Below are positions 4,224 through 25,882 of a stretch of DNA of 64,000 bases, in pieces. Within the stretch, counting starts at the first letter, position 1. Each line of letters begins with the position of its first letter. Both the position numbers and the translations under genes were made by a program. Where the stretch lies: assembly GCF_002849715.1 (NCBI RefSeq), contig NZ_CP018863.1:1860001-1924000 (forward strand), written 5' to 3'. This DNA comes from Arthrobacter crystallopoietes (GTDB lineage Bacteria > Actinomycetota > Actinomycetes > Actinomycetales > Micrococcaceae). Below the pieces are notes generated by a model, which saw only the letters and a list, made by a program, of their open reading frames with translations, did not search any database and had not been told where the DNA came from.

Positions 4224-4247
4224 AGTTCCTCCTGTAGGGATGACGGG

Positions 4248-5216: not shown

Positions 5217-5278
5217 ACGCCTGCAACTCCCTAACGTCTTTGTATGAAAAGTCGGCCAACAGTTGGACAAACGCAGCC

Positions 5279-5292
5279 TGCAATCGTTTGCG
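5279..5292. promoter_or_regulatory. putative LacI-family operator upstream of asparaginase
   Basis: TGCAATCGTTTGCG is a near-perfect palindrome with a central CG and closely matches TGCAATCGATTGCA found upstream of the main hydantoin operon. It lies about 65 bases before the asparaginase start. LacI-family sites usually have this form. Inference from sequence similarity only. Confidence 0.55.
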
Positions 5293-5459
5293 TAGCCTTC
5301 TTGAAAGATAGTATGGCGCACGGATGTGAGGCGCAACACTTTTTTGAAGAAGGCTGATACCGCTGGAAAGAGTCACACCGGAAATAATTTCCGCTGGGTT
5401 TCCACAAAATAAGCGGTTGTTGCTGGAGATGACGCCGAGAGCCCGCAAGGACTTGGAGC

Positions 5460-6659: not shown

Positions 6660-6838
6660 TTAGTCCTGATCCTCAAAGCGACGCAAACCCACCGTATAGC
6701 CTTGCCGGCCCCTTGGCATGCGGAAAAGCACCAACCACGCCAGTGTTGCATCCGCGAGACGGGAATGGGTCTGTATGACAAGCCTCATGTTAATTGCCGG
6801 GGGCTTGTGCTCGACCCGCTCAGGGCCCGGCTATTCCC

Positions 6839-8080: not shown

Positions 8081-8108
8081 GTTGATTCTCTCCTGTGATG
8101 GACCGTAG

Positions 8109-8873: not shown

Positions 8874-8909
8874 CGTGGGTATCCTTCGCCTGATGAGGCC
8901 GGTTCGGGC

Positions 8910-8945
8910 GGCAGGTGTCGAGTTGGACCGTCCTCGACACCTGCC
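8910..8945 (-). terminator. intercistronic hairpin between permease and racemase
   Basis: A perfect 13-bp stem (GGCAGGTGTCGAG with CTCGACACCTGCC) and 10-base loop lie in the 95-base gap between the permease stop and the racemase start. No T-run follows on the minus strand, so it may partly terminate or stabilise the mRNA rather than end the operon. Confidence 0.55.
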
Positions 8946-8968
8946 CGCTTGACGTAGGGAACAGAGGT

Positions 8969-10450: not shown

Positions 10451-10525
10451 TTAGCGTTCCTTTAGTGAGCGGTCTCCATTGACCGGTAAATAGTTGTTGA
10501 GGTTGCGATACCTGCAGCGCAGTAT

Positions 10526-11899: not shown

Positions 11900-11933
11900 T
11901 TTTGGTTACCGTCTTTCTTGTTTGATTGGTCTC

Positions 11934-12881
11934 TTAGTCATTCACGTTGAACGCGACGGGCAGCGGGGCGCCCCGCCCTTTTCTTTCGGCGATGATGCCG
12001 TACGCGTCGGGGCGCCGGTGGGCGGCGAAGTCGAAGACGCTTTCCTTATAGGGCCTGCCCATGTCGATATCTGCTTTCACAACGACGACTTCATCGCCCT
12101 CACCGGCCGCTTTGGCCAGGATTTCGCCGCTGGGCGCGACGACCGCTGATCCACCGATCATGTGGTGCCCGTCCTCGAAGCCCGACTTGCCCGCGGCAGC
12201 GACAAATACCGAGTTCTGGTATGCGCCCGCCTGAAGCGAGAGAAGGTGCGTGAACATCTTTGCGTGCGGCTCTTCCTGCCAGCCCGGAACGAAATCGGGG
12301 GTGTTATAGCCCAGGACAACGAGTTCTGCTCCCTGCAGGGAAAGCGAACGGTAGACCTCGGGCCAGCGCCGGTCATTGCAGAGACACATGCCGACCTGCA
12401 CGCCATGGAAGTCGAAGACACCGAACCCGAGGTCTCCTTCGAGGAAGTACTTCTTTTCGAGATGCTGGTTGGGAAGTCCTTCCCGGTTATCGGCATGGCC
12501 CGGCAGATGCATCTTGCGGTACTTGCCCACGATGTCCCCGTGCTTGTTCACCAGGATCGATGTGTTGTACCGCTTCTGATCACTGGTCAGTTCCGCGTAC
12601 CCGAGATAGAAACCAACACCAAGGTCTTTGGCCCGTTCGAAGAGGGGCCGGACATCGTCATTGGGCATGGATTTTTCGAAGTATCCCTCGAAGTCCCCTT
12701 CTTCGAACCAGGTCCGCGGGAAGAACGTGGTCAGCGTGAGTTCGGGAAAGACCACCAGTTCCGCGCCCTGGGACGCTGCTTCTTCCAGCAGGGCAATCAG
12801 GCGTGCGACGACTTCGGGTTTTGATTCCGAACTATCGATACCGCCGACTTGAGCAACCGCGAGCATCAAGTTTTTCGCCAA
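11934..12881 (-). CDS. nitrilase-family N-carbamoyl-D-amino acid hydrolase
   Basis: A 315-residue nitrilase-superfamily protein with the complete triad: Glu47 in VFPELTLTTFFPR, Lys123 in YRKMHLPG and Cys168 in MCLCNDRRWPE. The TTFFPR and CNDRRWPE strings are hallmarks of D-carbamoylase, which converts N-carbamoyl-D-amino acids to D-amino acids, ammonia and CO2; beta-ureidopropionase is the alternative. It is the second gene of the main operon, after an M20 hydrolase and before dihydropyrimidinase. Together with the racemase and the M20 L-carbamoylase it means both enantiomers could be handled. Confidence 0.9.
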   Translation of the reverse strand: MAKNLMLAVAQVGGIDSSESKPEVVARLIALLEEAASQGAELVVFPELTLTTFFPRTWFEEGDFEGYFEKSMPNDDVRPLFERAKDLGVGFYLGYAELTSDQKRYNTSILVNKHGDIVGKYRKMHLPGHADNREGLPNQHLEKKYFLEGDLGFGVFDFHGVQVGMCLCNDRRWPEVYRSLSLQGAELVVLGYNTPDFVPGWQEEPHAKMFTHLLSLQAGAYQNSVFVAAAGKSGFEDGHHMIGGSAVVAPSGEILAKAAGEGDEVVVVKADIDMGRPYKESVFDFAAHRRPDAYGIIAERKGRGAPLPVAFNVND

Positions 12882-12938
12882 TTTGTTTTCCTTCTTTCCG
12901 TTTTTTCCTAGATTTGTTTCCCTTTGAAAAGCGCCGGT

Positions 12939-14196
12939 TCAAGGCCGTGATTCATCGACCAGACGGACGCTTTTTTCGAGTACCGCAATGCCGTTGAGTA
13001 TGTCTTTTTTTGGGCGTGAACTCTTCCGGGCAGTGGCTTCGGCCGTCGATCGACGGAATGAAGATCATGCCCATGGGGGCTATCCCCGTCATATGTACCG
13101 AGTCGTGGGTGGCCCCGCTCGGAACCGCGGTCCAGGTCAGTCCCAGACTGGTTGATGCAGCGGCAATGGTTTCCTGGAGCGTGGCATCGGTGTGCGTGAT
13201 TTCGTTATCGAGAAACCATTCGACGTCCAGCTCGCAGCCGAACTCTGCCGCGCGCATGGACAGCCGCAGCGCGAGGTCTTTCTCGATGGCTCCGAACCAG
13301 GCGGAATCTGTTGAGCGTAGTTCCGCCCGAAGTTCCGATCGGCCGGGTACAACGTTCTGCGCCAGCTGCAGGGAGTCGATATGCGTTGTGGTTGCCACTG
13401 CATATTCCGGACTTCCACAGGCGAACTCATGAAGCGCCAGAGCGGAAGAAGCAGCGGCAAGCAGCGCGTCTTTTCTGGTCTTCATCCGGGCACCGCCCGC
13501 ATGGTCGTATTGGCCCATGTAGCGACCTACCAGTCGCTTGATTCCGGCGATGGCCGAGACGACGCCGATATTGCACCCCGTCTGATCCAAGGTTGAACTT
13601 TGTTCAATGTGCAGTTCGAGGTAGGCATGCCAGCTGCCCTGCGCCGGATGCTTGCCGCTGACGGCACGTGAGGGGTCCAGGCCGAAGGACTGCATCGCAT
13701 CGCCCAGGCGCTTGCCTTCCGGGCTCACACGCTCCAGATCCGTCACCGTCAGACTGCCCGCAAGCGCCCTGCTGCCGAGGCAGGTAAGCCCGAACGGGTT
13801 AGCCTCTTCGCCGAAGAAGTCAATGACCATCAGCGGCCGGTTCAGGACACTTCCGGATTCCTTGATCCGCTGCGCAACCTCGAGTGCGCCCAGGACGCCA
13901 ACGATTCCATCGAACCGGCCGCCGCGCTCGACAGTGTCCGTATGTGAGCCGATCACGATGGGCTTGGCGTCACTGTAGCGTCCGGGCAATATCCCGACGA
14001 TGTTTCCAAAGTCATCGACACGCACACCCTCGAGTCCCGCGAGTATGAATTCCTCGGTCATCCAGGAACGTTCCGCCCGATAAGAAGGGCTAAAGACAGT
14101 CCTCGTCCAACCGTCAAATGCGGGATCGACAAAAGCTTCAATACCTGCAAACAGCCGATCGATCCGGCCCGTAGAAATGCCGTCAAGTGTTTCCAT
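12939..14196 (-). CDS. second M20 N-carbamoyl-amino acid/allantoate hydrolase, frameshifted near the 3' end
   Basis: An M20 zinc hydrolase of the HyuC/AllC family (VIGSHTDTVERGGRFDGIVGVLG, DFFGEEANPFGL, C-terminal DGRSHCPEEFTP). As read, the frame continues past EEFTPKK into an Arg-rich tail ending at 12952. Removing one A from the A7 run (13005-13011, T on the plus strand) restores a family-like end, DILNGIAVLEKSVRLVDESRP, with a stop at 12939-12941. So a one-base homopolymer error or a real indel changes the last roughly 20 residues. I chose ATG 14196, with AAGG upstream, over ATG 14229. First gene of the main operon, about 110 bases after a LacI operator. Confidence 0.8.
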
Positions 14197-14305
14197 AGAG
14201 AGTGCCTTTGAGAGAGCGAATACCGGCATCAGGCCCCGGAGCGGAAGTGATCCCCATCACTTTTGATGCCTCTGGGCAACAACTTTAGCGAGGGCAAGAG
14301 GACAT

Positions 14306-14319
14306 TGCAATCGATTGCA
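14306..14319. promoter_or_regulatory. perfect LacI-type operator upstream of the hydantoin operon
   Basis: TGCAATCGATTGCA is a perfect 14-bp palindrome with central CG, the usual form of LacI/GalR-family sites. It is about 110 bases upstream of the first hydantoin operon gene and about 260 bases from the 3' end of the LacI-family gene, its likely reader. Confidence 0.65.
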
Positions 14320-14538
14320 GAAATTTTTTTGAGATTGCTTAGCGGGCCCCGCGACCTGAAGGATATGCAGTCGTGCTGAGGATCCCGCCTGGAACGGGAT
14401 GCCCGGCAAGGACATGGCTTGATGGCGGGGAGGCAGAAAGAGCGGCCAAGTCGCGACCGCGAACTAACGGTGTTCCAGCCCAGGCGGGAACAGACGGGGT
14501 CACACGGAGCAGGCCAACATCTTCACGGTCATGATGAG

Positions 14539-14552
14539 AGCAAACGCTTGGA
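14539..14552. promoter_or_regulatory. secondary LacI-type operator
   Basis: AGCAAACGCTTGGA matches the consensus GCAANCGNTTGC except for one base at the right end. It lies about 233 bases from the perfect site, a distance that could allow looping between two dimers. Weaker than the other two sites. Confidence 0.4.
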
Positions 14553-14581
14553 GCAGGACGGCGGAAGCTGTTCGGAAAAGA

Positions 14582-15610
14582 TCAGGCGTTCACCGGAGCG
14601 AATGCAAGTGTTGATTCCCTGGCGAGCAGCTGCGGCGTGAGTTTCAAGGAGCGTGGCGTGCGGCCTTCGATGGCCTCGACCAGGGTGTCGAGGCTTCTGG
14701 CTCCCACCTCATGCAGAGGGGAAGCAATGGTGGTCAGAGGCACCGGCAGATGCTTGGAAATTTCTATGTCGTTGTAGCCGACCAGGGCGACGTCGCGCCC
14801 TATCGTTATCCCTGCCTCCCGGAGCCTGAACATGATGCCGGCGGCAGTCAGGTCGTTGCTGGCAAAGATGGCTGTGGGAAGTTTAGGCCAGTCAAGCAGC
14901 GTTTCGGCGGCGCGCTGGCCGGAGGCAATATCGAATCCCGCAGGGACTATCCGTGAATCGTCAATCCTTGTGCCCAATTCCAGCATGCGGCGCCGAAAGC
15001 CTTCGACTCTGTCCCTGCCCGTGCTCACTGAACTATCAGGCGAAATGATCGCTATCTCCGTATGTCCCGCTGCCGCCAGATGTTCAGCAGCCAACCGTCC
15101 ACCCAGCAGATCGTCGACGGCGACTGAAACCTCGTCGTCGTTCTTCCTCAGGCACATCACATACGGTATGTGCCGCTTCCGCAAAGTCGCCGGGAGGAGA
15201 TCGCCCTCAAAGGTGTCTTGGATGATGATTCCTTCGACACGGCTGCGGATAAGGCTGTTGGCGCGGCTGGGAGAGCGATCATCAAGATTGGCCGACATGC
15301 TCAACATGGTCGAGTAGCCTCTGCGCAAGGCCTGCTTGTCGATGCCTTCATAGGTGGTGGCGTGAACCGGATCGGTCAGGCTCGGGACCGTGACGCCGAT
15401 GAGCCGGCTGCGGCGGGTCCGTAACCGTGAAGCTGTGGCATCCGGCTGAAAATCGAGTTGGTCGGCCAGCTCCCTGATTATCAGGGTGGTCTTGTTGGTC
15501 GTATGTTGCCGCGGTTCCTGCAACGCCCGCGAAACCGTCGAGATGTGCACTCCGACCCGCTTGGCAAGGGTTGCCATAGTAACGGGTGAAGTATCCCGCG
15601 TATCTTCCAT
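14582..15610 (-). CDS. LacI-family transcriptional regulator
   Basis: The N-terminal helix-turn-helix is VTMATLAKRVGVHISTVSRALQEP, followed by the hinge and a periplasmic-binding-protein-like sensor (LIGVTVPSLTDPVHATTYEGID, then FASNDLTAAGIMFRLREAG). I chose ATG 15610, with GGGGAG six bases upstream and the family-typical 342 residues. ATG 15706 also has an AGGGA site, but the added 32 residues are low-complexity with poor codon bias. It is encoded upstream of and in the same direction as the hydantoin operon and most likely represses it through the TGCAATCGATTGCA sites. The effector is probably a hydantoin, ureide or carbamoyl amino acid; this is inferred. Confidence 0.88.
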   Translation of the reverse strand: MEDTRDTSPVTMATLAKRVGVHISTVSRALQEPRQHTTNKTTLIIRELADQLDFQPDATASRLRTRRSRLIGVTVPSLTDPVHATTYEGIDKQALRRGYSTMLSMSANLDDRSPSRANSLIRSRVEGIIIQDTFEGDLLPATLRKRHIPYVMCLRKNDDEVSVAVDDLLGGRLAAEHLAAAGHTEIAIISPDSSVSTGRDRVEGFRRRMLELGTRIDDSRIVPAGFDIASGQRAAETLLDWPKLPTAIFASNDLTAAGIMFRLREAGITIGRDVALVGYNDIEISKHLPVPLTTIASPLHEVGARSLDTLVEAIEGRTPRSLKLTPQLLARESTLAFAPVNA

Positions 15611-16732
15611 GGGACTCTCCCCGTCATCGGTGATTTCCCGTATCAGTTTACCGCTATCGCTTTGCGCGCGATTAGGGCTAGACGGCGCTTCAGAGTGCTC
15701 AATCATGACCAGTCCCTGTTGAATCAAATTTTGTGGGGTATCTCCCCCCCCCTGAGACATGAGGGGTCTAACGAGCATAGAACCGGATGATACTCATGGT
15801 GGTACTCGTGAGAACCGCCGCTATGCGTGTCGCTGTGCAGAGAAGAGCGACAGACAGCGGCAAGCCGCCAAGCGAAGACATCGAAAGAACGGCCCGATTC
15901 TTACTGCTTGTGCAGCACCATGTTCTTCGAAGAAGAATATGTGTCTCATCTACAACGTGTCCCCTGGAAGAAAATTCTTACGATTTTCGTTCCTCCGTTC
16001 CTCGGGACAAATCGTGGTCCTTTTCAGCGCGCCGATACTTCCCCTGCTGAAATCGTGTGGCAATCAAGGGTCGCGGTAAAGGACCGGCTTGTGCGACTGC
16101 GGGGACGCTTGGAGTGAGCCGGAGTTTCAATAAGGGGTTTCTTAGGCCGGTGGTAACCGGCGGAACGGAACGGACGCGCGGGGAGTCCTGGTAGGGGAAA
16201 TTGCCGGCGTTGCCCTGAGGGAGGCATCCGTCTCAGTGGGCGCGGGGCGTGGAGCATTCCATAGGGTTCTAGCATCCTGGCGGACGGACGCTTTGCCTTC
16301 GGCGAGCAGCTAGCCCATATGGAGATGCTGTCCTCCGTTGCTTACCCCGTGACCGTCGAGCTTGCCGGATGGATGGAGATTACCCGGAACGCTCCAAGGC
16401 CTTCGTGACCGACGAGCCTTTGGCTTGTCAGCACGACGCAATGGACGGGTTCTTCGTCAAGACGCGTGCCTCACTAGCTCGATGTGCGGAATTCCTAAAT
16501 TTTTTAAATTTCTAGTGCAAACTCTGCAGCACATGTGTAAGGTAGTCGCATAAGCAATGAAGTGATGAAGGTCACCTTGGGGGAGGCGCCGCGATAGTTC
16601 CCGCGGCTCGCAACTAATGGCCTTCCGCTATCGCGGTGCACACCTCGCAGTCTGGGCGGGTGTGCCTAAGTCTTCGACGGCAAGTAGTTCAAGGGCGTGC
16701 GACGCCGCTGCAACATGAAAAAGGAGAACCTC
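15611..16732. other. long intergenic stretch with a possible gene remnant
   Basis: About 1.1 kb without an intact gene. It is less GC-biased than its surroundings, with an AT-rich near-palindrome AAATTTTTTAAATTT around 16497-16511 that could be part of a promoter or operator for the downstream flavin reductase. A frameshifted remnant is listed at 16273-16515. Open frames on either strand here lack ribosome sites. Confidence 0.45.
16273..16515 (+). pseudogene. possible remnant of an isocitrate lyase/PEP mutase-like gene
   Basis: One frame reads ILADGRFAFGEQLAHMEML and SSVAYPVTVEL; after a one-frame shift near 16368 it continues DGDYPERSKAFVTDEPLAC. The join resembles the DG...E...PVTVDL-DGDYP pattern of PEP mutase/isocitrate lyase proteins. 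There is no start, and a stop follows soon after. Weak evidence; it could be chance. Confidence 0.25.
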
Positions 16733-17293
16733 ATGATTACTGCACCCTCTCGTTTGGAGACTCTGGTGCCTCCTGCGCAACTGCGCGATTCCATCGACGT
16801 CGACACCTTCAAGTCCGCGTTCCGCATGCATCCGGCCGGAGTCTCCGTTATTGCGGCAGACGCCGGCAACGGCCCAGCCGCGATGACGATCAGTTCGCTC
16901 ACCTCGGTCAGCACCGAACCGCCACTGGTGACTTTCTCGCTATCAGCGCTCTCGTGGAGCACCCCGGTCTTCCTGGAAGCGGACACCGTAGTCGTTCACC
17001 TGCTTGGTTCCGAGCACCTGCGGCTAGCGCAGCTGGGTGCCACCGGTCGTGTCGACCGGTTTGCGGATAAGTCGGCCTGGACGCGTCTGCCAACGGGGGA
17101 GCCCGTCTTTAAAGAGACGTACGCGTGGCTGCGCGGGCACATCGTGAACCGCCTGGAAGCAGGAAACTCGGTAATCTGCGTTGCGCACATCGTGCAGGCC
17201 TCGGTTCCTGATGCGGCCGCGGCGGAGACGTCCGTCCCGCTTGTTTACCACGGGCGCACCTGGCATCAGCTGGGTACGCATTCCGCTATCTGA
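16733..17293 (+). CDS. flavin reductase, HpaC-like component of a two-component monooxygenase
   Basis: I chose ATG 16733, which has AGGAG six bases upstream, giving 186 residues. The fold is the flavin-reductase FMN-binding split barrel: FKSAFRMHPAGVSVIAADAG, then TISSLTSVSTEPPLVTFSLS and the C-terminal PLVYHGRTWHQLG. It reduces free FMN or FAD with NAD(P)H and hands it to a partner oxygenase. The next gene is an HpaB-like oxygenase, the natural partner. This is the first gene of a plus-strand catabolic island. Confidence 0.88.
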   Translation: MITAPSRLETLVPPAQLRDSIDVDTFKSAFRMHPAGVSVIAADAGNGPAAMTISSLTSVSTEPPLVTFSLSALSWSTPVFLEADTVVVHLLGSEHLRLAQLGATGRVDRFADKSAWTRLPTGEPVFKETYAWLRGHIVNRLEAGNSVICVAHIVQASVPDAAAAETSVPLVYHGRTWHQLGTHSAI

Positions 17294-17449
17294 TTTGTTT
17301 GCGTGCGCTCCGGGCCGCATAGCTGCAGCGCCGTGAGCCCTGCCAGACCCGGTACAGGGGGCCCGGTGATGCGCGGGCACCGGCCGTTGCCACCGGAGTT
17401 TAGACCATCTCTACCCGTTCCATCCTCACCACGACCCATGAAGGAAATC

Positions 17450-18955
17450 ATGAGCATAGAAAACGTAGAAGCGTTCGCGTCCGTCAACGCCATGCGCAAC
17501 GTCCAGGAAATCCTCAATCAAGGCACCGAACCACATCTGCTCTCCGGTGCCCAGTACCTGGAGTCACTTCGCGACGGCCGTCGGGTAATTGACAGCCAGG
17601 GCAAGGAAATTCCGGACGTCACCGAACATCCGACGACCGGGCCTTCAGCCCACACGTTCGCAAGCGTCATGGATATGCAGTTCGACGAAAAATACCGCAA
17701 CACCCTGACTTACCTGGACGACGCAGGTGACCGCCGAGCCCGCGGGTGGCACATCCCGCGCAACAAGGAGGACCTTTTCCTCAAGCGGGAGCAGATTGGC
17801 GCGACCGGTGAGCGTACTCTCGGCATGTTCGGGCGTCCCCCGGAGTACGGCCCGGCGATGTCGCTCGGCTTCCTTGCGATCATCGACCGGATCGAGAAGG
17901 AAAACCCCGTCTTCGCAGAGAACATCCGCCGGTTTGTGGACCAATCCAGCAGGCTGAATCTGCTGAGCACCGACCTCATCGCCGACCCGCAATCCGACCG
18001 CCGCGTGCCGCGAAACGAACGTCCCGGCACCCTGCGCGTCGTCGGCGAGACCGACGAGGGCATTATGCTCCGGGGAAGCAAAATCGCAGGGAGTTCCGGC
18101 TCCATCTCGCACTTCTTCACACTGTCGACGACCCTCGGCGAAGGCCTGGGTCCGGACGCTGCCATCTGGGCAGCGATCCCGGTCAACCTGCCGGGAGTAA
18201 CACTCGTGACCCGTGAGCCCGCCCTGCACAAAAAGCAAAACCCCGTTGACAATCCCATCGGGGTGCTCGGCGAGGAGGTCGACCAGATCATCCTCTTCGA
18301 CGACGCGGTGCTTCCAAAGGACCTCGTGTTCAGCCTGGGCAATACGGAGCTGCTCACGGCATACTTCGACAGCTGCGTGTTCGTGTTCTGGCACATCCTC
18401 ACCCGCCTCGCCTATCGTGCCGAACTCTTCGCCGGCACCGCCCAGGTGATCGCCGAGACCCTGGGCACCGACAAGATCCCGGGCGTGCGCCGGACGATCG
18501 CGGACATCACAACCTACGCCCAGGTCCTCAAAGGCTTCTCGATCTCAGCGATCGCGGAAAGCGAGAACTGGAACGGGGTGGAGGTCCCCAATCCGGGCCT
18601 GGTTTCCGCCGGCCGCTACTACTCGATTTCCGAGTACGACAACGTCATCTCGAAGCTGAAAGACCTCTGCGGCCAGGGGCTCATCTCCCGGTGGCCGACC
18701 GAGATCTGGGAGCACCCGGAGTTCGGCCCGAAGCTGAAATCGTTCCTTCCCGGGCACGACATCGACGCGTTCGGAAAGAACCAGCTCTTCAACTTCGCCT
18801 GGGACCTCACCGCCAGTGCGAACGCCGGCCGCCTCGGTCTGTTCGAGAAGGTCAACGCGACTCCTCCGGCGTTTGTCGCCGAGATCGTGTACCAGCACGT
18901 CGGCCGCGATAAGAGCGCACAGTTCGTCCGCGACTTTCTCGCCCGCAGCCGGTAG
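17450..18955 (+). CDS. HpaB-family flavin-dependent monooxygenase (oxygenase component)
   Basis: ATG 17450 has AAGGA upstream and gives 501 residues, typical of 4-hydroxyphenylacetate 3-monooxygenase-family oxygenases. The flavin/substrate-site motif GRPPEY (Arg129, Tyr133) is kept, as are EEVDQIILFDDAVLP and the C-terminal GRLGLFE. Where phenol hydroxylases of this family have, as I recall, a substrate-contacting His before the NPQ-type motif, this protein has STDLIADPQSDR (Asp175), so the substrate may not be a phenol. Family members also hydroxylate N-heterocycles such as pyrrole-2-carboxylate and indole. Uses reduced flavin from the upstream reductase. Substrate unknown. Confidence 0.88.
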   Translation: MSIENVEAFASVNAMRNVQEILNQGTEPHLLSGAQYLESLRDGRRVIDSQGKEIPDVTEHPTTGPSAHTFASVMDMQFDEKYRNTLTYLDDAGDRRARGWHIPRNKEDLFLKREQIGATGERTLGMFGRPPEYGPAMSLGFLAIIDRIEKENPVFAENIRRFVDQSSRLNLLSTDLIADPQSDRRVPRNERPGTLRVVGETDEGIMLRGSKIAGSSGSISHFFTLSTTLGEGLGPDAAIWAAIPVNLPGVTLVTREPALHKKQNPVDNPIGVLGEEVDQIILFDDAVLPKDLVFSLGNTELLTAYFDSCVFVFWHILTRLAYRAELFAGTAQVIAETLGTDKIPGVRRTIADITTYAQVLKGFSISAIAESENWNGVEVPNPGLVSAGRYYSISEYDNVISKLKDLCGQGLISRWPTEIWEHPEFGPKLKSFLPGHDIDAFGKNQLFNFAWDLTASANAGRLGLFEKVNATPPAFVAEIVYQHVGRDKSAQFVRDFLARSR

Positions 18956-18957
18956 CA

Positions 18958-19002
18958 GGGGTGAGCGGGGCCGCGGCCGCTGACCGCGGCCCCGCTCACC
19001 CC
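18958..19002 (+). terminator. perfect 19-bp hairpin after the oxygenase gene
   Basis: Arms 18958-18976 (GGGGTGAGCGGGGCCGCGG) and 18984-19002 pair without mismatch around a 7-base loop. No T-run follows. It starts two bases after the oxygenase stop and sits 37 bases before the cyclase start, so it may cut expression of the downstream genes or protect the upstream mRNA. Confidence 0.65.
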
Positions 19003-19038
19003 CACCAATCCCCGAAACGACCAACCTAAGGAAAAACC

Positions 19039-19794
19039 ATGAGCATTGAAACGACCAATCGAACGTTTCCGAAGCTGGGCACCGATCTGCTGGACCGCTC
19101 CCTTGACGTGATTGACCTGACCCGTCCGATTTACGAGGGCATGCCTCAGTGGTTCGGTCATCAGAAGACCTTCATCATGGTCAACCAGACGCACGACCAG
19201 TTTATGGAGAAGTGGAAGACGACGTGCGGGTTCGAAGCCCACAACCTGCTCATCAGCGAACACGTCGGCACGCATACGGACGCCATCTTCGAGTACGCGA
19301 AGGACGGTCCCAAACTCGACGAGTCGCCGTTGGCCTTCTATTACGGTCCGGCCGTGTGCATCGATGTCGAACCCTTCGTGGAATCGGACGTGGAGCTGCT
19401 CTCCCAGAAGAAGCTCGTCCAGGCCGTCGCCGCCAGCGGGCAGGAGATCCGCCGCGGGGACGTTCTGCTGCTGCACTTCGGCTACGGTGACCGCGTCTGG
19501 CCGGAACTCGCGTACGCGGAACGGAACCCGGGCCTGTCACATGAGGCGGCCCTGTGGATCGCCGAGCAGGGTGTCGTGAACATTGGCGTGGACCAGATGA
19601 GCATCGACAGCAGCGAGGACGCGGAGTTCTCCGCCCACGTCGTCTGCGCCGAGTACGGCATCGTCAATACCGAAAGCCTCACCAACCTCTCGCGAATCAA
19701 GAACGAGCGCGTGCTCTACCTCGGTCTGCCCCTTAACATCCGGGGCGGCACGGGCTCTCCGATCCGCGCTGTCGCCATCCGCCAGGCCGGCTAA
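19039..19794 (+). CDS. cyclase-family metal-dependent amidohydrolase (kynurenine formamidase/isatin hydrolase-like)
   Basis: The 251-residue protein starts IDLTRPIYEGMPQW and carries SEHVGTHTDAIFEY, the metal motif HxGTHxD (His75, His79, Asp81). The usual following PxH is changed to FE (Glu85). The family includes kynurenine formamidase, isatin hydrolase and the IndC-type enzyme of indole degradation, all of which hydrolyse amide or lactam bonds. Directly after an HpaB-type oxygenase and its reductase, it would be the ring-opening step on a hydroxylated lactam. It has a good AAGGA site before ATG 19039. A decayed second copy of its 3' end follows. Confidence 0.85.
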   Translation: MSIETTNRTFPKLGTDLLDRSLDVIDLTRPIYEGMPQWFGHQKTFIMVNQTHDQFMEKWKTTCGFEAHNLLISEHVGTHTDAIFEYAKDGPKLDESPLAFYYGPAVCIDVEPFVESDVELLSQKKLVQAVAASGQEIRRGDVLLLHFGYGDRVWPELAYAERNPGLSHEAALWIAEQGVVNIGVDQMSIDSSEDAEFSAHVVCAEYGIVNTESLTNLSRIKNERVLYLGLPLNIRGGTGSPIRAVAIRQAG

Positions 19795-19796
19795 CC

Positions 19797-19943
19797 GTGT
19801 CCGCGGATCCAAGACAGGCAGCATCTGCGGCCGCCGCCGGTGGCATGGAGGTACACGGCGTCGAACTCAGAGGCCTGCCACTTAATATCTGCGGTGGGAG
19901 CGGCTTTCCCCTCCGCGCCGACGCAATCCTAAATAGAGGGTGA
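19797..19943 (+). pseudogene. fragment of a second cyclase gene (3' end only)
   Basis: The frame ending at TGA 19941-19943 reads GVELRGLPLNICGGSGFPLRADAI, clearly matching the end of the intact cyclase (LYLGLPLNIRGGTGSPIRAVAI). Only about 30 codons are recognisable; the upstream 16 codons are Ala-rich and unrelated. It fills the gap between the cyclase and permease genes and most likely marks loss of a tandem paralogue. Confidence 0.7.
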
Positions 19944-19949
19944 TCGAAT

Positions 19950-21461
19950 ATGGCTGAACCGATCCGGCCCGAGCCGGGGACCGCTGGCAAGACTGTCAAT
20001 TTCGAACTTCGGGGCATTGATTACGTGCCGGATGATATGAGGGACTCGACACCCTCTAATCTCTTCCGGGTATTTGTCGGTGCACAACTGACCTTCGGCA
20101 TCATGATCCTGGGATGGCTGCCGGTTGTCTTTGGGCTCGATTTCTGGAGCGCTGTAACTGCGACAACACTCGGCACGATCGTTGGTGCAGTGATGTTCGG
20201 CTTGTTCTCTCTCCTGGGACCCAGAACCGGCACCAACAGCGCTGTCAGCACGGGTTTCTGCTACGGGGTAAAAGGCCGCCTACTGGGTTCCTTTAAGGCT
20301 CTCTTTATCGGCGTAGGCTACCTCGCCCTGACCGTGTGGGTCTGCGGAGATATGGTTGCCGCGGGGGTGGCCAGGATGACCGGGAGCGGGACATCGGATG
20401 CCTTGCGGGCGATATCGTATCTGGTGATCATGGCAGCGCTTATCATTATCGCGCTGGTTGGTCATGATTTGCTCGTCAAGCTTCAAAAATACGTCATCCC
20501 ACTAGTGCTGTTGGGTCTTGCAGTGATGGTGGCGACGACGTTCTCCGCCTTCGGGAGCACGCTCGAGACTCAGGCAAGCACTTTGAGTCCTTCCGAATAC
20601 TGGGTGGCCTGGGTTGCGACATTCGTAATTGCAATGCAGCTGCCGGTCTCTTACATGCCTTTCGCTAACGGGTTTACCCGGTATATCAGCCGAAAGAGAT
20701 GGAATGACCGGTCCGTTTTCCTCGGCATGTCCCTCGGGGTTAGTCTAGGCGTCCTCATTGCCCTGATCGTCGGCATCTATATTTCCACTTTGTTCGCGGC
20801 TGACCAGATGTCCTTTGGTGACGGTGTGGTTAGTGTCGTTCCTTCGTGGTTCGTGCTTCCACTGGTTCTAATAGCGCTCATCGGCGCCTTTGACCAGGGC
20901 GGGTTTGCGCTCTACGGGTCAGGACTCGACGCTTCTTCGGTTATCCCGGCCTTGCGTCGGCTGCCGGCGACAGTTGTTCTAAGTGTCATATCTTTGCTCC
21001 TGGTATTTCTGGGATCTTTCGTATGGGACGCCGCCGTTATCGTTTCGGGCTTTGTGACCATCATTGCCGTCTTCGTGCTGCCATGGGCTGCCGTGGGCTT
21101 TACTAGTTTCCTGTTCCAGAAGGGCCGGCTATGGCCGCTGGACCTTCAGGTCTTTGAGAAGGGGATTCGCGGCGGAGCGTATTGGTATAACCGGGGATGG
21201 AACTGGCGGTCTACGGCAGCGTATGCGGCCGGCGTGCTTGTGGCGCTCCTGTTCGTCAAGAGCGACGTCTACAACGGCGTTTTGGCTGACGCTTTCGGCG
21301 GAGCCGACCTGAGCATGTTTGTCAGTACGATCGTCGCGGTCGCGCTGTATACAGTCTTCCGACTCATCTCCCCCGAGCAGCTGGAACTGCCGGCAAAAGG
21401 GGAAACCTCTACGGCATCACCTGCCTTGAAAAATCCGGCGTCCGCCTCCGTACCGGAGTGA
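19950..21461 (+). CDS. NCS1-family cytosine/purine-type permease
   Basis: The 503-residue protein has about 12 membrane segments and belongs to the CodB/purine-cytosine permease branch of NCS1 (DYVPDDMRDSTPSNLFRVFVGAQLTFGIMILG, then GPRTGTNSAVSTGFCYGVKGR). It likely imports a nucleobase-like or other small N-heterocycle by cation symport. It starts at ATG 19950 right after the cyclase fragment and is followed by a strong terminator, so it closes the first half of this island. It differs from the other NCS1 permease in this window, which is of the hydantoin/allantoin branch. Confidence 0.88.
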   Translation: MAEPIRPEPGTAGKTVNFELRGIDYVPDDMRDSTPSNLFRVFVGAQLTFGIMILGWLPVVFGLDFWSAVTATTLGTIVGAVMFGLFSLLGPRTGTNSAVSTGFCYGVKGRLLGSFKALFIGVGYLALTVWVCGDMVAAGVARMTGSGTSDALRAISYLVIMAALIIIALVGHDLLVKLQKYVIPLVLLGLAVMVATTFSAFGSTLETQASTLSPSEYWVAWVATFVIAMQLPVSYMPFANGFTRYISRKRWNDRSVFLGMSLGVSLGVLIALIVGIYISTLFAADQMSFGDGVVSVVPSWFVLPLVLIALIGAFDQGGFALYGSGLDASSVIPALRRLPATVVLSVISLLLVFLGSFVWDAAVIVSGFVTIIAVFVLPWAAVGFTSFLFQKGRLWPLDLQVFEKGIRGGAYWYNRGWNWRSTAAYAAGVLVALLFVKSDVYNGVLADAFGGADLSMFVSTIVAVALYTVFRLISPEQLELPAKGETSTASPALKNPASASVPE

Positions 21462-21466
21462 CCGGA

Positions 21467-21511
21467 GGGTGTTGCCCCGGCCGCGGCGGTCACACTACCG
21501 GGGCAACACCC
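21467..21511 (+). terminator. terminator hairpin after the NCS1 permease
   Basis: GGGTGTTGCCCCGG (21467-21480) pairs perfectly with CCGGGGCAACACCC (21498-21511) around a 17-base loop. It begins six bases after the permease stop. No T-tract is present, as is common in high-GC actinobacteria. Confidence 0.7.
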
Positions 21512-21633
21512 GTAAACCTGCTGCAGTCCTGCTACGACTCCAGGAGGAAGCGTGTTTCTGGCAATCGCGAGATCAACACGAATGAAATTTGAAATGTTTT
21601 ACTGCACATCATCTATTGACGGAAGGGGCGGTT

Positions 21634-22854
21634 ATGCGGCTAGAGGAGAGTGTTTTGGCTGTTGACGATGAACTTCTGAAAATTTACAAGCAGCTACATG
21701 CGAACCCTGAATTATCAATGGCAGAATTTCAAACATCTGCGTTTATCCGACGCGAGTTGGAACAACTGGGTTTTGAGGTTCGCAGCTGTGGGGGAACCGG
21801 ACTTGTCGGGACCTTGAAAAACGGTGCCGGCCCCTCCGTGGCATTTCGCGCGGACATGGACGGCCTGCCTGTGCGTGAGGAGACCGGGGCATCTCACGCC
21901 AGCGCAGTCAAAGCCCGTGATCGTTCAGGTTCCGAAGTACCCGTGATGCACGCCTGCGGACACGATATTCACATGACGGTAGCCCTCGGTCTGGCGCGGC
22001 AAATGAAAGCTGACGTAGGCAGGTGGTCCGGCACTCTAATCCTCATATTTCAACCTGGAGAAGAGACCGGTGAGGGAGCACGCGCAATGCTCGACGACGG
22101 TCTGTGGGACATCGCGCAATTACCTGACTGCGTCTTTGGGCTGCACGTCTGGCCTCTGGCTGCCGGCTCCGTCGAGCTCGTTGTGGGCGACACCATGGCC
22201 ATGGGCGATTCACTCCGCGTCACGGTCAAAGGCATCGGCGGACACGGGTCACAGCCGCAAGACTCCGTCGACCCCGTCGTGATCGCCGCCAATATGGTTG
22301 TCGCGCTGCAGTCTGCCGTGTCCCGTAATCTTGATCCACTAAGTGCCGGGGTTGTGACCGTTGGCACCTTCCACGCGGGCACCAAGGAAAACATCATCCC
22401 CGCTGAGGCCGAATTTACCATCAACATCCGCTCTATTGACCTGGACGCCAGAAAGGTGTTGATGGGGGCGGTCGAGCGAATTATCGGTGGTGTTGCTTCA
22501 GCCTTCGGTGCTCCCGAACCGTCGATCAGTGTGATTAACAGCTTCCCGCATCTTTATAGTGACCCTGTCCTCATCTCGGACATCAAGTCGCGTTTCGATG
22601 TCGCGCTGGGCGAGACGAATGTGCGATACGGAAAGCCCCGCCTCGCAAGCGAAGACTTCGGACTGCTGGGGGAAGCTATCGGCGCGCCGAGTGCGTACTG
22701 GTTTATCGGCGGTCTTCCTGAAGGCGTTATGGGGAATGAGCAGATCCCGAGGAATCATTCCCCGTTCTTTTATCCGGATCCGGTCCCCACGCTCGAGGTG
22801 GGCATTCGCACTGCCTACGAAGCCTGCCTCTCGGTGTTGGATACAAATGCGTAG
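21634..22854 (+). CDS. M20D amidohydrolase (hippurate/IAA-amino acid hydrolase-like)
   Basis: I chose ATG 21634, preceded by GGAAGGGG, giving 406 residues. The M20D signature is clear: FRADMDGLPVREETG, VMHACGHDIHMT (Cys108, His110) and QPGEETGEGARAML (Glu143/Glu144). These enzymes cut an acyl-amino acid or other N-acyl amide, or deacetylate intermediates. It starts a second transcription unit with the RidA-like and CE4 genes; about 120 bases separate it from the terminator, leaving room for a promoter. A likely late step that releases an amine or acid from the opened ring. Confidence 0.88.
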   Translation: MRLEESVLAVDDELLKIYKQLHANPELSMAEFQTSAFIRRELEQLGFEVRSCGGTGLVGTLKNGAGPSVAFRADMDGLPVREETGASHASAVKARDRSGSEVPVMHACGHDIHMTVALGLARQMKADVGRWSGTLILIFQPGEETGEGARAMLDDGLWDIAQLPDCVFGLHVWPLAAGSVELVVGDTMAMGDSLRVTVKGIGGHGSQPQDSVDPVVIAANMVVALQSAVSRNLDPLSAGVVTVGTFHAGTKENIIPAEAEFTINIRSIDLDARKVLMGAVERIIGGVASAFGAPEPSISVINSFPHLYSDPVLISDIKSRFDVALGETNVRYGKPRLASEDFGLLGEAIGAPSAYWFIGGLPEGVMGNEQIPRNHSPFFYPDPVPTLEVGIRTAYEACLSVLDTNA

Positions 22855-22899
22855 CGTCGCGTATTCCTCGCGACGCGCTAAATGAAAGGAAATACGATA

Positions 22900-23331
22900 A
22901 TGAACAAAACCCGCATCATGCCCGCTGACCTCTGGGACTGGCCGGTCCCGACTCCCTTCACCCAGGGCTGGAAAGTAAGCGGCGACTACGAGACCATCTT
23001 TGTCGGCGGCCAGATTTCTGTTGACCACAATAACAACGTGATCGGCAAGGGCGATATCGAAGTGCAGACCAGAAACGTCTTCGAGAACATCCAAAAGGTT
23101 CTCAAAGAGGCCGGGGCCGAGATGACCGACATTGTGAAGTTCAACACCTTCTACACATTTGAAGGGTCCGGGGAGGACGTGCAGCATTTTTGGGAAAAGA
23201 TGAATCGCGTGCGTTTGGAATTCCTTAAGGAGCCGGGCCCCGCCGGGACCGCGGTCCGATGCTCAGGATTTATGCTGGACGACATTCTCATTGAGGTGGA
23301 GGCAATAGCTGTCATTCCGCGGAGAGACTAA
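22900..23331 (+). CDS. RidA/YjgF-family protein lacking the deaminase arginine
   Basis: ATG 22900 has AAAGGAAA upstream, giving 143 residues. The RidA fold is seen in YETIFVGGQISVD, ...TRNVFENIQKVLKEAGAEMTDIVKFNTFY and the C-terminal ILIEVEAIAV. The catalytic Arg of enamine/imine deaminases (PARS in E. coli RidA) is Gly here (GPAGTAVRCSG), so it probably does not act as a classical imine deaminase. Members of other Rid subgroups work in heterocycle and nitro-aromatic pathways. It lies between an M20D hydrolase and a CE4 hydrolase, with gaps of 45 and 30 bases. Confidence 0.85.
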   Translation: MNKTRIMPADLWDWPVPTPFTQGWKVSGDYETIFVGGQISVDHNNNVIGKGDIEVQTRNVFENIQKVLKEAGAEMTDIVKFNTFYTFEGSGEDVQHFWEKMNRVRLEFLKEPGPAGTAVRCSGFMLDDILIEVEAIAVIPRRD

Positions 23332-23361
23332 AAGACTTCGATCATTTAGGAGAGTCACCGC

Positions 23362-24285
23362 ATGATCGCCAACCCTATTCAGTGGCCTAACGGTGCGAAG
23401 GTAGCCGTGGCGCTAAGCTTCGATATGGACTCGGACAGTACGCTGCTTCTGGACCATCCGGACCGTGCCCACCGCCTGGTGTCACCAAACTCCTGGCTTC
23501 GGTACGATGAAGTTGCGATTCCGCGCATCCTTGAAATGTTCAGGCGCCACGGTATCAAGCAGACCTTTTATGTGCCGTCATGGTGCATCGAGCGCTATCC
23601 CCACTTGGTCGAGTCAATACTGGATGGCGGACATGAGCTGGCGCATCACGGCTACCTGCACGAGAACCCGAATTCACTTTCTGCCGAGGATCAGGCTTAT
23701 TGGCTGGAGAGGGGGATCGGCGTCTTCGAGAAGTTTACAGGTTCCCGACCCCGAGGATTCAGGTCACCGATGTATAACTTCTCCGAAGTTACCGCCAAGC
23801 TACTCGGAGAAAACGGCTTCCTCTACGATTCATCGTTGATGGGAGACGACGTCCCCTATTTGATAGATGGAGGTGCCGGAAAGCTCGTTGAGCTGCCGAC
23901 TCACTGGGCACTGGATGATTGGCCCCATTACACGCACATGCCGGATTTCGGCTATACGATGCCGATTAGCTCCCCGGGGCGCGCGATGGAGGTGTTCCTT
24001 AGCGAATTTGATGCTGCCTGGGAGTTTGGCGGTATGTGGGTTTCGGTTTGGCATCCGTTTGTAAGCGGGCGCCTGGCTCGTTGCCGGGAAGTGGATAAGA
24101 TGATCACCTACATGCAAGACAAGGGCGATGTATGGTTCGCCACGCTTGAGGAGATTGCCCGGCACGTGGTTGAGTCCGTTGATCAAGGATCCTATGTTCC
24201 CCGCGAAGTCCGCTTGCCATACTACGATGGGGCCGCCATGGGCGTGGGAACGCGCGATTTTGCACCTGGAACCCCTGATAAATGA
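23362..24285 (+). CDS. polysaccharide deacetylase (CE4) family protein, PuuE/cyclic-imide-hydrolase-like
   Basis: The 307-residue cytoplasmic protein has the NodB Asp pair LSFDMDSD (Asp21, Asp23) and the His pair in ELAHHGYLHEN (His96, His100). It resembles PuuE allantoinase and cyclic imide hydrolase more than wall deacetylases: it has no export signal, and the long loops RLVSPNSWLRYDEVAIPRIL and HWALDDWPHYTHMPDF are typical of that branch. AGGAG precedes ATG 23362. It would open a cyclic amide or imide in the unknown pathway. It is distinct from the other CE4 protein in the hydantoin island. Confidence 0.85.
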   Translation: MIANPIQWPNGAKVAVALSFDMDSDSTLLLDHPDRAHRLVSPNSWLRYDEVAIPRILEMFRRHGIKQTFYVPSWCIERYPHLVESILDGGHELAHHGYLHENPNSLSAEDQAYWLERGIGVFEKFTGSRPRGFRSPMYNFSEVTAKLLGENGFLYDSSLMGDDVPYLIDGGAGKLVELPTHWALDDWPHYTHMPDFGYTMPISSPGRAMEVFLSEFDAAWEFGGMWVSVWHPFVSGRLARCREVDKMITYMQDKGDVWFATLEEIARHVVESVDQGSYVPREVRLPYYDGAAMGVGTRDFAPGTPDK

Positions 24286-24380
24286 ACCGCTGGATGCCAA
24301 GCTTGCATCTTGTCGCTCTTGCCCAAGGATAGGTTAGCTGCCGGCGTCGGCGCGAACGCGCAGGAGCCGCCTTTCGGCGC

Positions 24381-24413
24381 GTGGGCGCAGGCCCTCTCGG
24401 AGGCTGCGCCCAC
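24381..24413 (+). terminator. hairpin downstream of the CE4 gene
   Basis: GTGGGCGCAG (24381-24390) pairs with CTGCGCCCAC (24404-24413) around a 13-base loop, about 95 bases after the CE4 stop. No T-run follows. Confidence 0.55.
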
Positions 24414-24902
24414 GCTCGGAACCGTGTAACTAACAGACGTCTGCATATCAGCGTCCTCCGCGGGGTCGAGATTGAAAACAAGCTTATGTCCGTGAACGTA
24501 GGGGCCCCGTCGTCATACTCGTAAGACGACATGGTGGCCATGCTTATACCGGCGCAGTCAGTTCCGAAATTCCAAAGGCGTGGCCTATGAACAGGAACAC
24601 CGGGCCATTCCAAAAGCAATACCCATCCTGCCTCCACACGCCTCGAGACCCGGCGGGACCGGGAACGGTGCCGTCGGCAACGGATGCCTCCGCCAAGGGC
24701 AACAGCAGCCACCCGGTGCCGCGGCATTCGTTCCGTCGGCACTGCAGGCAGCTGTGCCGAGTTCGGAACTCTTCCCCCAACGAGGTCCGGACCGACAAGT
24801 TCCCATCAACACGCCCTGTGCGGCACGGGCATGCTGGCGCTGCCTGCTTCTTCATGTTCGCCGCCTGCAACGGCCGCATGTCAGAGGACGGCGTCGCACC
24901 GT

Positions 24903-24940
24903 TTGTGCGGCTTCCTTCAGTGCTTGTGCGGCTTCTTTCA
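24903..24940. promoter_or_regulatory. 21-bp-spaced direct repeat upstream of the MerR-XRE-cupin gene
   Basis: TTGTGCGGCTTCCTTCA (24903-24919) is repeated with one mismatch at 24924-24940. The 21-base offset is two helical turns, so two protein units would bind the same face. The repeats end about 20 bases before a TATGAT -10 candidate, a position suited to control of the regulator itself. Confidence 0.5.
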
Positions 24941-25000
24941 TGTCTGGTGCAGCGAACACTATATGATCGATTGAAACACTCATCTTTCAGGAGAACTTTT

Positions 25001-25882
25001 CTGGCAGCGGGGCAGGAGGAGAGAACCATCACGACCGGCATCGACCAGGACCAGGCCGGGAATGAAGAACAGGCCGCTGAAGCGCCCATTCTCAAGATCG
25101 GGCATGTCGCAAGCATCCTCGGGGTGCCGACGGCACGCATCCGCTTGTGGGAACACGAGCGGCTCATTAACCCTTTGCGCACAGACAGTGGCCAGCGGCG
25201 ATACTCGCCGCGGGATCTCGAGCGCCTTCAGACGATCCGGGACCTTCTCGACACCAAGGCTATGACCCTCACCGGCGTGCGAGAGGCACTCAGCGAAGAG
25301 GTCGTACCGCCAAGCTCCATGGAACCGTCTCCGGCTCCCGCCGATCCGGTCGGCGCCCGGGCGAAGGCCTTGCGCCTCCAGCAGGGCATGAGCCTTCGGG
25401 ACCTTGCCAAATTGAGTGGAATCAGTCCTTCAGCTCTGGGAGCATTCGAGCGCGGACTGAACAAACCGAACACCGGTCGGATCTCGAAAATCGCCCATGC
25501 GCTCGGAACAACGGTTCCGGAACTTCTCGGCACCGCGCCACCGGAAAGCGGGACAGTCGTCCGGGCCGCGGAACGTCCATCATTACCGCTAAACGACGAG
25601 GGCGTCACCATCGAGTTGCTGTACCGATCTGCGACCGCCCTGCAGCCGCAGTCGATCGTGGTCCAACCCGGATGCGGAATACGTGAAGCGATCACTCACA
25701 CGGGAGAAGATTTCCTAGTGGTCATGACCGGGGAAATCAATCTCGTTCTCGACACGATCGAGGTGCACCACCTTGGACCGGGGGACTCCGCGACATTCCC
25801 GAGCACGCGGCCGCACAGTTTTCACAACCCGGGAACAGTACCTGCCCACCTCATCTGGGTGAACACGCCAGCGACATTCTGA
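25001..25882 (+). CDS. regulator with MerR-type and XRE-type DNA-binding domains plus cupin
   Basis: Three domains are visible, numbered from CTG 25001. A MerR-like winged helix is at about 30-95 (LKIGHVASILGVPTARIRLWEHE, QRRYSPRDLERL). An XRE helix-turn-helix is at about 117-175 (ALRLQQGMSLRDLAKLSGIS). A C-terminal cupin is at about 195-293 (HTGEDFLVVMTGEINL, PHSFHNPG). No ATG in a sensible place is in frame; CTG 25001 has AGGAG seven bases upstream, and ATC 25028 has GGAGGAG. XRE-cupin proteins usually sense small metabolites of amine or ureide pathways. It is placed to control the preceding catabolic genes and itself. Confidence 0.8.
   Translation: MAAGQEERTITTGIDQDQAGNEEQAAEAPILKIGHVASILGVPTARIRLWEHERLINPLRTDSGQRRYSPRDLERLQTIRDLLDTKAMTLTGVREALSEEVVPPSSMEPSPAPADPVGARAKALRLQQGMSLRDLAKLSGISPSALGAFERGLNKPNTGRISKIAHALGTTVPELLGTAPPESGTVVRAAERPSLPLNDEGVTIELLYRSATALQPQSIVVQPGCGIREAITHTGEDFLVVMTGEINLVLDTIEVHHLGPGDSATFPSTRPHSFHNPGTVPAHLIWVNTPATF

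Follow-up and report, generated by a model that had tools for sequence, protein, structure and literature searches.

Which compound would a bacterium take up and break down with a flavin-dependent oxygenase, its reductase, a nucleobase-type permease and three amide hydrolases encoded side by side? This question is raised by a 64,000-nucleotide stretch of the Arthrobacter crystallopoietes genome (assembly GCF_002849715.1, 5.03 Mb in three contigs; contig NZ_CP018863.1, positions 1,860,001 to 1,924,000, or G000:C1:1860001-1924000 in our numbering), referred to below as the window, in which eight genes, A to H, follow one another between positions 16733 and 25882. Our analysis of gene content and conserved residues indicates that they form a horizontally shared module, most likely for the oxidative catabolism of an N-heterocycle or a cyclic amide—a reading to which we assign a probability of roughly 60%. 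The features of the run are listed here, with identities to loci in other genomes (L011, on an Arthrobacter plasmid, and L015) where these are informative.

16733..17293, plus strand: A, flavin reductase, HpaC/RutF-like (PF01613 Flavin_Reduct, 3e-27; 68% identity to the L011 reductase)
17450..18955, plus strand: B, HpaB-type (group D) flavin-dependent oxygenase (HpaB_N/HpaB, PF11794/PF03241, 1e-50/9e-31)
18958..19002, no strand: inverted repeat with 19-bp perfect arms 3' of B, possible terminator (hairpin search)
19039..19794, plus strand: C, cyclase-family amide hydrolase (Cyclase PF04199, 2e-33; motif HVGTHTD...E85; 89% identity to the L011 cyclase)
19863..19943, plus strand: remnant of a second cyclase gene (its C-terminal end), lying between C and D
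19950..21461, plus strand: D, NCS1 permease (Transp_cyt_pur PF02133, 1e-49; 40% identity to the L015 permease)
21467..21511, no strand: inverted repeat with 14-bp perfect arms 3' of D, possible terminator (hairpin search)
21634..22854, plus strand: E, M20D amidohydrolase, likely an N-acyl amino acid hydrolase (Peptidase_M20 and M20_dimer; TIGR01891, 267 bits against a cut-off of 153.75)
22903..23331, plus strand: F, Rid-family protein without the RidA catalytic Arg (Ribonuc_L-PSP PF01042, 3e-20)
23362..24285, plus strand: G, CE4/PuuE-like hydrolase, no signal peptide by eye (Polysacc_deac_1 PF01522, 1e-16; D23, H96, H100, H231)
24373..24421, no strand: inverted repeat with 18-bp arms (89%) 3' of G, possible terminator (hairpin search)
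25029..25882, plus strand: H, MerR-XRE-cupin regulator (MerR_1, HTH_3 and Cupin_2; open reading frame (ORF) from 24587)

Pfam and NCBIfam searches with the window proteins confirmed the eight genes of the original prediction, together with their strand and end points, all of which proved correct. The evidence that carries our reading is the company these genes keep elsewhere. A profile of 28 oxygenases, run on the contigs of GTDB species, retrieved 39 loci from sequences titled Actinomycetota, Bacillota, Proteobacteria, one Gemmatimonadetes metagenome-assembled genome (MAG) and one Chloroflexi MAG; a scan of the same contigs with the single oxygenase gave no match in that collection, which may lack the source genome and those very near to it. 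Neighbouring genes were counted by tblastn or with profiles built from the loci, every row being counted, including three loci of one genome (L030, L032 and L034, the first two overlapping on one contig) and two of one MAG (L023 and L025). Rid and CE4 genes were each found in 24 of the 39 loci, the former at 47–66% identity and the latter at 50% or more in 19 loci and at 30–33% in five, while a cyclase gene was present in eight (51–65%) and an NCS1 permease gene in 16 (24–40%). An M20-family hydrolase (26/39, of which 12 showed direct similarity and the others matched a profile) and a flavin reductase (30/39, seven of them with direct similarity and the others again by profile) were also common, although these two counts are less informative because their profiles also take other subfamilies. 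The oxygenase with Rid and/or CE4 or cyclase occurs in genomes titled Actinomycetota, Bacillota and Proteobacteria and in the Chloroflexi MAG. The original prediction had made co-conservation across genomes its main test, and the outcome is strong and crosses phyla.

To gauge how rare the components are, genomes were sampled evenly from the order of the window; G002—a second genome of the genus, described below—and the other known carriers of the order were not among them. The oxygenase profile (E <= 1e-120) matched one of 396 genomes, and the cyclase (E <= 1e-50) and Rid (E <= 1e-25) each matched one of 198; in all three cases this was the window's own genome. CE4 (E <= 1e-60) was found in 13 of 396, the 12 others at 36–46% identity. 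These samples thus measure rarity and not absence, and the linkage itself comes from the 39 loci. Genes that are so rare and yet stand side by side in distant phyla belong together beyond chance.

Several arrangements recur. In Bacilli such as L030, the genes run in the order permease, Rid, CE4, oxygenase, reductase, FAD synthetase (confirmed by Pfam in L027) and M20; the permease gene lies 3' of the oxygenase gene in L029, L031 and L052. A Rid-CE4-oxygenase triplet occurs twice in each of L027, L028 and L030, and five of the six show a 4-bp overlap between the CE4 ORF and the oxygenase ORF. In Mycolicibacterium, Gordonia and Rhodococcus (L017, L018, L020 and L022), permease, Rid, oxygenase, reductase and cyclase are accompanied by a divergent regulator and an M20 gene; in L019 the regulator lies upstream. 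Reductase, oxygenase, M20, Rid and CE4 are found in Nocardioides (L024), oxygenase, CE4, M20 and reductase on an Aminobacter plasmid (L012) and in Pseudaminobacter (L045), and in L011 a row of reductase, oxygenase and cyclase genes is followed by a Rid gene of 450 bp. In the Thermoleophilia locus L021, three cyclase genes and several Rid genes adjoin the oxygenase; two Phenol_Hydrox proteins (soluble di-iron monooxygenase type) and a chaperonin are encoded among them. None of the 39 loci carries CE4 and cyclase together—the window has both—and the two hydrolases therefore look interchangeable. This distribution tells against the separate lactam-opening and cyclic-amide steps that had been proposed for cyclase and CE4, since elsewhere one replaces the other. 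Matches to CE4 (P0125, 77%) and cyclase (P0249, 74%) on contigs of equal length (9485 bases) hint that a further locus with both may exist.

The oxygenase belongs to the group D flavoprotein monooxygenases, which are defined by HpaB domains (PMC13101512): B matches only two Pfam domains, HpaB_N and HpaB, and a separate PF01613 reductase gene is present, as expected of a two-component enzyme. Its closest solved structures are Thermus HpaB, a 4-nitrophenol monooxygenase and a chlorophenol monooxygenase, and it fell below the cut-offs of the HpaB equivalog models TIGR02309 (226.7 vs 480.2) and TIGR02310 (96 vs 885.2). The key substrate-binding residues of HpaB are R100, Y104 and H142 (PMC10816480). 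In the alignment to the Thermus enzyme (TtHpaB), these positions are occupied by R129, Y133 and D175 of B; the first two residues of the R-Y-H set of 4-hydroxyphenylacetate (4-HPA) hydroxylases are thus kept, and the His142 equivalent is replaced. Across 46 oxygenase rows (the loci and the window, one gene entered twice), R129 is kept in 45, the exception being one incomplete row, and Y133 in 43, while position 175 holds Asp in 43 rows and Glu in three. Asp also stands there in all 28 oxygenases of the search profile, and Ser in a distant oxygenase paralogue from the window's own genome. With an acidic side chain in place of the HpaB His, the substrate may be one that presents a hydrogen-bond donor, e.g., a ring N-H. 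The three Glu175 rows come from L013 (one) and L014 (two), whose more distant oxygenases show 36–37% identity; neither locus has a CE4 or cyclase gene, and hydrolases annotated as isochorismatase-family are encoded nearby—possibly a third version of the module. The absence of a dehalogenase-type catalytic His was also considered as a family hallmark. The catalytic residue of the dehalogenase HadA is His290 (PMC10696468), and its position, aligned by eye, holds His in 17, Leu in 15, Phe in 10 (B among them) and Gln in four of the 46 rows; we gave it no weight because of this variation, and the hallmark was dropped with 17 relatives having His.

In the CE4 alignment, all 28 rows keep D23, H96, H100 and H231 of G (as in the cyclase and Rid alignments, the protein from the window is entered twice), and we take D23, H96 and H100 to be the metal triad of the CE4 D-H-H motif. 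The closest solved structure by sequence is the CE4-like 3rxz (5.6e-65). An assignment of G as a plain PuuE allantoinase was rejected: the TIGR03212 score is 77.1 against a cut-off of 424.6, and PuuE has Trp where G has H100. In the cyclase alignment, HxGTHxD and a Glu at position 85 are preserved in every row (14 of 14, and 10 of 10 in a second alignment). Compared with the metal motif HxGTHxDxPxH of isatin hydrolase and KynB, C thus has Glu85 at the position expected for the last His. Isatin hydrolases match C at about 1e-11, and its score with the kynurenine formamidase model TIGR03035 (70.1) lies below the cut-off of 223.05. As to the M20D component, the protein at L011:16295-18184 carries about 220 extra N-terminal residues, and in L017 a separate gene of 207 amino acids, VOC-like by eye, lies 5' of the M20D gene.

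Protein F had been described as RidA-like, which holds for the Rid family as such; the catalytic arginine, by contrast, is gone. That conserved residue is needed by RidA imine deaminases, and the Rid4–Rid7 proteins, which are without it, seem not to hydrolyse imines (PMC4433059). It is present in none of 35 Rid rows, 30 of which have Gly in the alignment with E. coli RidA as reference, whereas the RidA Glu (E120) is kept in F and in 33 of the 35; the RidA model TIGR00004 gave 67, below its cut-off of 106.25. Canonical RidA chemistry for F was rejected on the strength of the missing arginine. Permease D scores above the gathering threshold of PF02133 (169.7 vs 23.5) and below the cut-off of TIGR00800 (64.5 vs 353.1). 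Relatives of regulator H adjoin the oxygenase in eight of the 39 loci (32–56% identity), and L011 has two (59% and 66%). A single regulator of this kind joins MerR, XRE and cupin domains and is co-conserved with the actinobacterial clusters; to our knowledge, the combination is unusual.

The enzymes encoded next to the module give some indication of its products. The ORFs of 43 loci were clustered and then checked with Pfam and NCBIfam. An alanine dehydrogenase gene adjoins the module in L011 (TIGR00518, 553 bits) and L027, and serine dehydratase domains adjoin L017, L019, L020 and L022. In L011, the alanine dehydrogenase gene is followed on its 3' side by one for an FdhF/YdeP-family oxidoreductase (905 bits, cut-off 582), which fails the strict formate dehydrogenase model (254 vs 666). 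Moreover, the source genome contains a paralogous operon, L071 (G000:C1:3238000-3248000), with a reductase, an HpaB-type oxygenase, an M20D protein and an aspartate ammonia-lyase; a Rid match adjoins its oxygenase, as seen in L009. The alanine and serine enzymes and L071, which follows their pattern, together weakly indicate that the products of the module are alpha-amino acids. L071 also encodes a protein of 224 amino acids without an NCBIfam match, DUF1028-like by eye; near it lie genes for an ABC binding protein, for an M20 protein and, judged by eye, for a LysR-like protein.

Taken together, these features can be arranged into a pathway. The NCS1 permease would import a small N-heterocycle or cyclic amide, whose ring would be hydroxylated by the HpaB-type oxygenase with reduced flavin supplied by the reductase, giving a product whose keto form is a cyclic amide. 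The ring would then be opened by a metal-dependent amide hydrolase of the cyclase family or of CE4, both of which are available here, and the opened intermediate may be handled by the Rid protein through a non-standard mechanism. M20D could hydrolyse an N-acyl or N-formyl derivative to release an alpha-amino acid, and the alanine dehydrogenase or serine dehydratase found beside the module in some other genomes would lead on to pyruvate; the MerR-XRE-cupin protein is a candidate regulator of the whole. What the data show directly are the identities of the genes, their co-conservation, the active-site residues and the segment shared with G002, whereas the class of substrate, the individual reactions with their order, the terminators and the regulation are deduced from these. 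The original idea of an oxidative opening of an N-heterocycle thus survives through the co-conservation and the fit of oxygenase, reductase, amide hydrolases and an N-heterocycle-type permease, though not through the analogy with indole degradation from which it had started. Our best guess at the substrate is an imidazole- or pyrazine-type ring. A tentative and, taken alone, rather improbable version is a route for 4(5)-substituted imidazoles paralleling histidine utilisation, in which the oxygenase would form an imidazolone, CE4 or cyclase would act as imidazolonase, and the arginine-less Rid and M20D would remove the one-carbon formimino or formyl group. The side chain would then set the amino acid, a methyl group giving alanine and a hydroxymethyl group serine, and an acetate side chain would require aspartate ammonia-lyase, the enzyme that ends the paralogous operon L071. 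If this imidazole route were true, the so-called polysaccharide deacetylases of CE4 would gain a ring-opening role beyond allantoinase, and the replacement of one hydrolase by an unrelated one would have an explanation.

Several observations weigh against a catabolic pathway of this kind. Alanine or serine enzymes lie beside just six of the 43 loci, and the four serine loci are related clusters. Neither CE4 nor cyclase was found in seven of the 39 loci. Four of these (L025, L026, L051 and L053) are short contigs, but the other three—L035, from the Gemmatimonadetes MAG, L042 and L043—are not short, and the oxygenase alone was recognised in them. ABC or amino-acid-type transporters take the place of NCS1 in L012, L024 and L039. 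Because NCS1 is poorly conserved and other transporter types occur elsewhere, substrates may differ between clades. A plain iminohydrolase role of F is doubtful since the imine-hydrolysing arginine is missing from every Rid row. Finally, a dyad and k-mer search of nine clusters yielded no convincing operator motif for the regulator: one 6-mer dyad was common to two clusters (no dyad recurred in two clusters in any of 20 shuffles), and four clusters had one 9-mer in common, the k-mers being counted without a shuffle control.

Other explanations account for parts of the same evidence. A rather unlikely one is the degradation of alkylpyrazines, hydroxypyrazines or (dehydro)diketopiperazines, where two hydroxylations would give a didehydro-diketopiperazine and amide hydrolyses would release pyruvate together with alanine or serine. 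It accounts for the repeated Rid-CE4-oxygenase triplets of Bacilli, the alanine and serine enzymes and the N-acyl amino acid hydrolase; moreover, strains of Rhodococcus erythropolis can degrade 2,5-dimethylpyrazine, and a genome of that species (L022) carries the module. However, pyrazines should cross membranes, so that a dedicated permease is not obviously needed, and such a gene set was not found described in the titles and abstract openings of the open-licence literature; the tetramethylpyrazine operon tpdABC of Rhodococcus jostii begins with a putative flavin monooxygenase (PMC6099782).

Slightly less probable is the degradation of pyrrole-2-carboxylate. The oxygenase would form 5-hydroxypyrrole-2-carboxylate, and opening of the lactam with deamination would then lead to 2-oxoglutarate. 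Such a lactam would be a fitting substrate for the hydrolases, but there is no need for M20D or for alanine and serine enzymes. The rare, patchy and horizontally shared occurrence of the module could also reflect a role in detoxifying or processing a heterocyclic natural product, such as an antibiotic or alkaloid, instead of nutrient growth. This is improbable in view of the permease and of the ammonia- and pyruvate-yielding neighbour enzymes of some loci, which look catabolic. Less credible still is an ordinary phenol hydroxylase of the 4-HPA, chlorophenol or nitrophenol type with unrelated neighbours: the HpaB family membership, the phenol monooxygenases among the closest structures, the retained R129 and Y133, and a His at the dehalogenase position of 17 relatives (though Phe in the window protein) speak for it, whereas the co-conserved neighbours, an HpaB equivalog score far under the cut-off and an Asp or Glu at the His142 position in all 46 rows do not.

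We now turn from the preferred reading—oxidative catabolism of an N-heterocycle or cyclic amide—to how the module came to its present location. Relative to the cyclase-type cluster L011, identities are high for A (68%), B (86%), C (89%) and H (66%) and low for D (24%) and E (36%), and CE4 is absent there; E and G are nearer to CE4-type clusters (46% and 64% in L024, with CE4 at 64–69% in most Bacilli rows), and F is equally near both types (66% at best, 59% in L011). Across 19 residues, the translated remnant at 19863–19943 is 74% identical to the C-terminal ends of intact C and of the L011 cyclase and is, by this resemblance, the leftover of a lost second cyclase copy. The split identities, this remnant and the hairpin-bounded blocks described below suggest that the module of the window may have arisen from two joined cluster types. 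A scan of 10 genomes of the genus found matches (E <= 1e-40) in four, with high identity only in G000 and G002. A segment of 23.9 kb, window positions 2376–26306, is shared with G002 at 97.3% over 9,840 bp and 99.5% over 14,099 bp; the match stops sharply at both ends, and the surroundings are unrelated. Proof in the form of an empty insertion site was not obtained; the G002 flanks gave no match in G000 in one comparison (run without its own positive control) and two matches of about 84 bases in another. The longest word that the two segment ends share within 160 bases has 8 bases. Just beyond the left end there is an inverted repeat (2247–2336), and the few flanking ORFs tested included no recognisable transposase. 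The segment has the appearance of exchanged or mobile DNA. It also includes a hydantoin/dihydropyrimidine utilisation cluster on the minus strand (3345–15778). This cluster encodes a LacI regulator, a carbon-nitrogen hydrolase, two proteins of the hydantoinase/carbamoylase family that exceed the TIGR01879 cut-off and a hydantoinase that reaches 702 bits with TIGR02033 (cut-off 393); an allantoin-type NCS1 protein, a CynX-like MFS transporter, an asparaginase and a second CE4 protein are named by best matches below cut-off.

The original prediction described the genes as packed on one strand, which is accurate for all eight; they do not, however, appear to form a single transcript. Three hairpins divide the run into four blocks, A-B, C-D, E-F-G and H: the one 3' of B has 19-bp perfect arms (-48.7 kcal/mol, z -9.0), that 3' of D 14-bp perfect arms (z -2.9) and that 3' of G 18-bp arms at 89% (z -2.4). 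We infer a transcript-ending role at most, because all three are without a U-tract and a consensus terminator scan, which found nine sites against 8.5 in shuffles, picked none of them. One long operon was not supported with three hairpins interrupting it, the terminator scan being uninformative. The gaps within E-F-G are 27–48 bp and then 30 bp. Read from the sequence, B probably starts at 17450 and not at 17303, where its longest ORF begins, and E at the ATG at 21634, with a TTG at 21589 as alternative. The first ATG of the ORF of F is at 22882, and several starts are possible for H, whose part conserved in relatives begins near 25090.

How does the module compare with known systems? In organisation it resembles the Rut pyrimidine pathway, where the individual roles of RutA–G show the same division of work among a flavin oxygenase with a PF01613 reductase, a Rid protein, hydrolases and a nucleobase-type permease. 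However, the luciferase-like domain of RutA is in none of the eight window proteins, matches to RutF (53.1 vs 254.75) and RutC (55.5 vs 169.1) are weak and below cut-off, and cyclase, CE4 and M20D take the place of RutB and RutD; by these comparisons, the module would work like Rut without being a member of it. With the phenol monooxygenases HpaB/HpaC, TftD and HadA, it shares the domain pair, the separate reductase and the equivalents of Arg100 and Tyr104, but it differs from them in Asp175 at the His142 position and in the co-conserved amide hydrolases. Indole degradation is similar in its two-component flavin oxygenase and, at the family level, in a cyclase-family hydrolase. The indole monooxygenase IndA, however, is a group E flavoprotein of the styrene-monooxygenase type (PMC6165268); the proposed analogy with IndA/IndB/IndC fails because the oxygenase classes differ, and an indole-type pathway by homology was rejected on this ground. 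G shares its fold family with PuuE allantoinase and 3rxz and, unlike PuuE, keeps His100. In the kpi cluster for 4-hydroxypyridine of Arthrobacter sp. IN13, a cytosine/purine/allantoin permease stands beside a flavin monooxygenase, KpiA being of the FAD_binding_3, KpiB of the alpha/beta hydrolase and KpiC of the amidohydrolase_1 family (PMC7356986), so that among the catabolic genes the permease family alone is common to both. No description of the gene set studied here was found in the open-licence full-text literature, a body that mostly excludes subscription papers. The proteins are at present labelled polysaccharide deacetylase, 4-hydroxyphenylacetate 3-monooxygenase or kynurenine formamidase, among others, and the discovery of one substrate would correct such labels. 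Rid proteins without the catalytic arginine were called mysterious in 2015 (PMC4433059); finding the substrate would give them a role and would reveal a nitrogen compound that bacteria recycle using oxygen.

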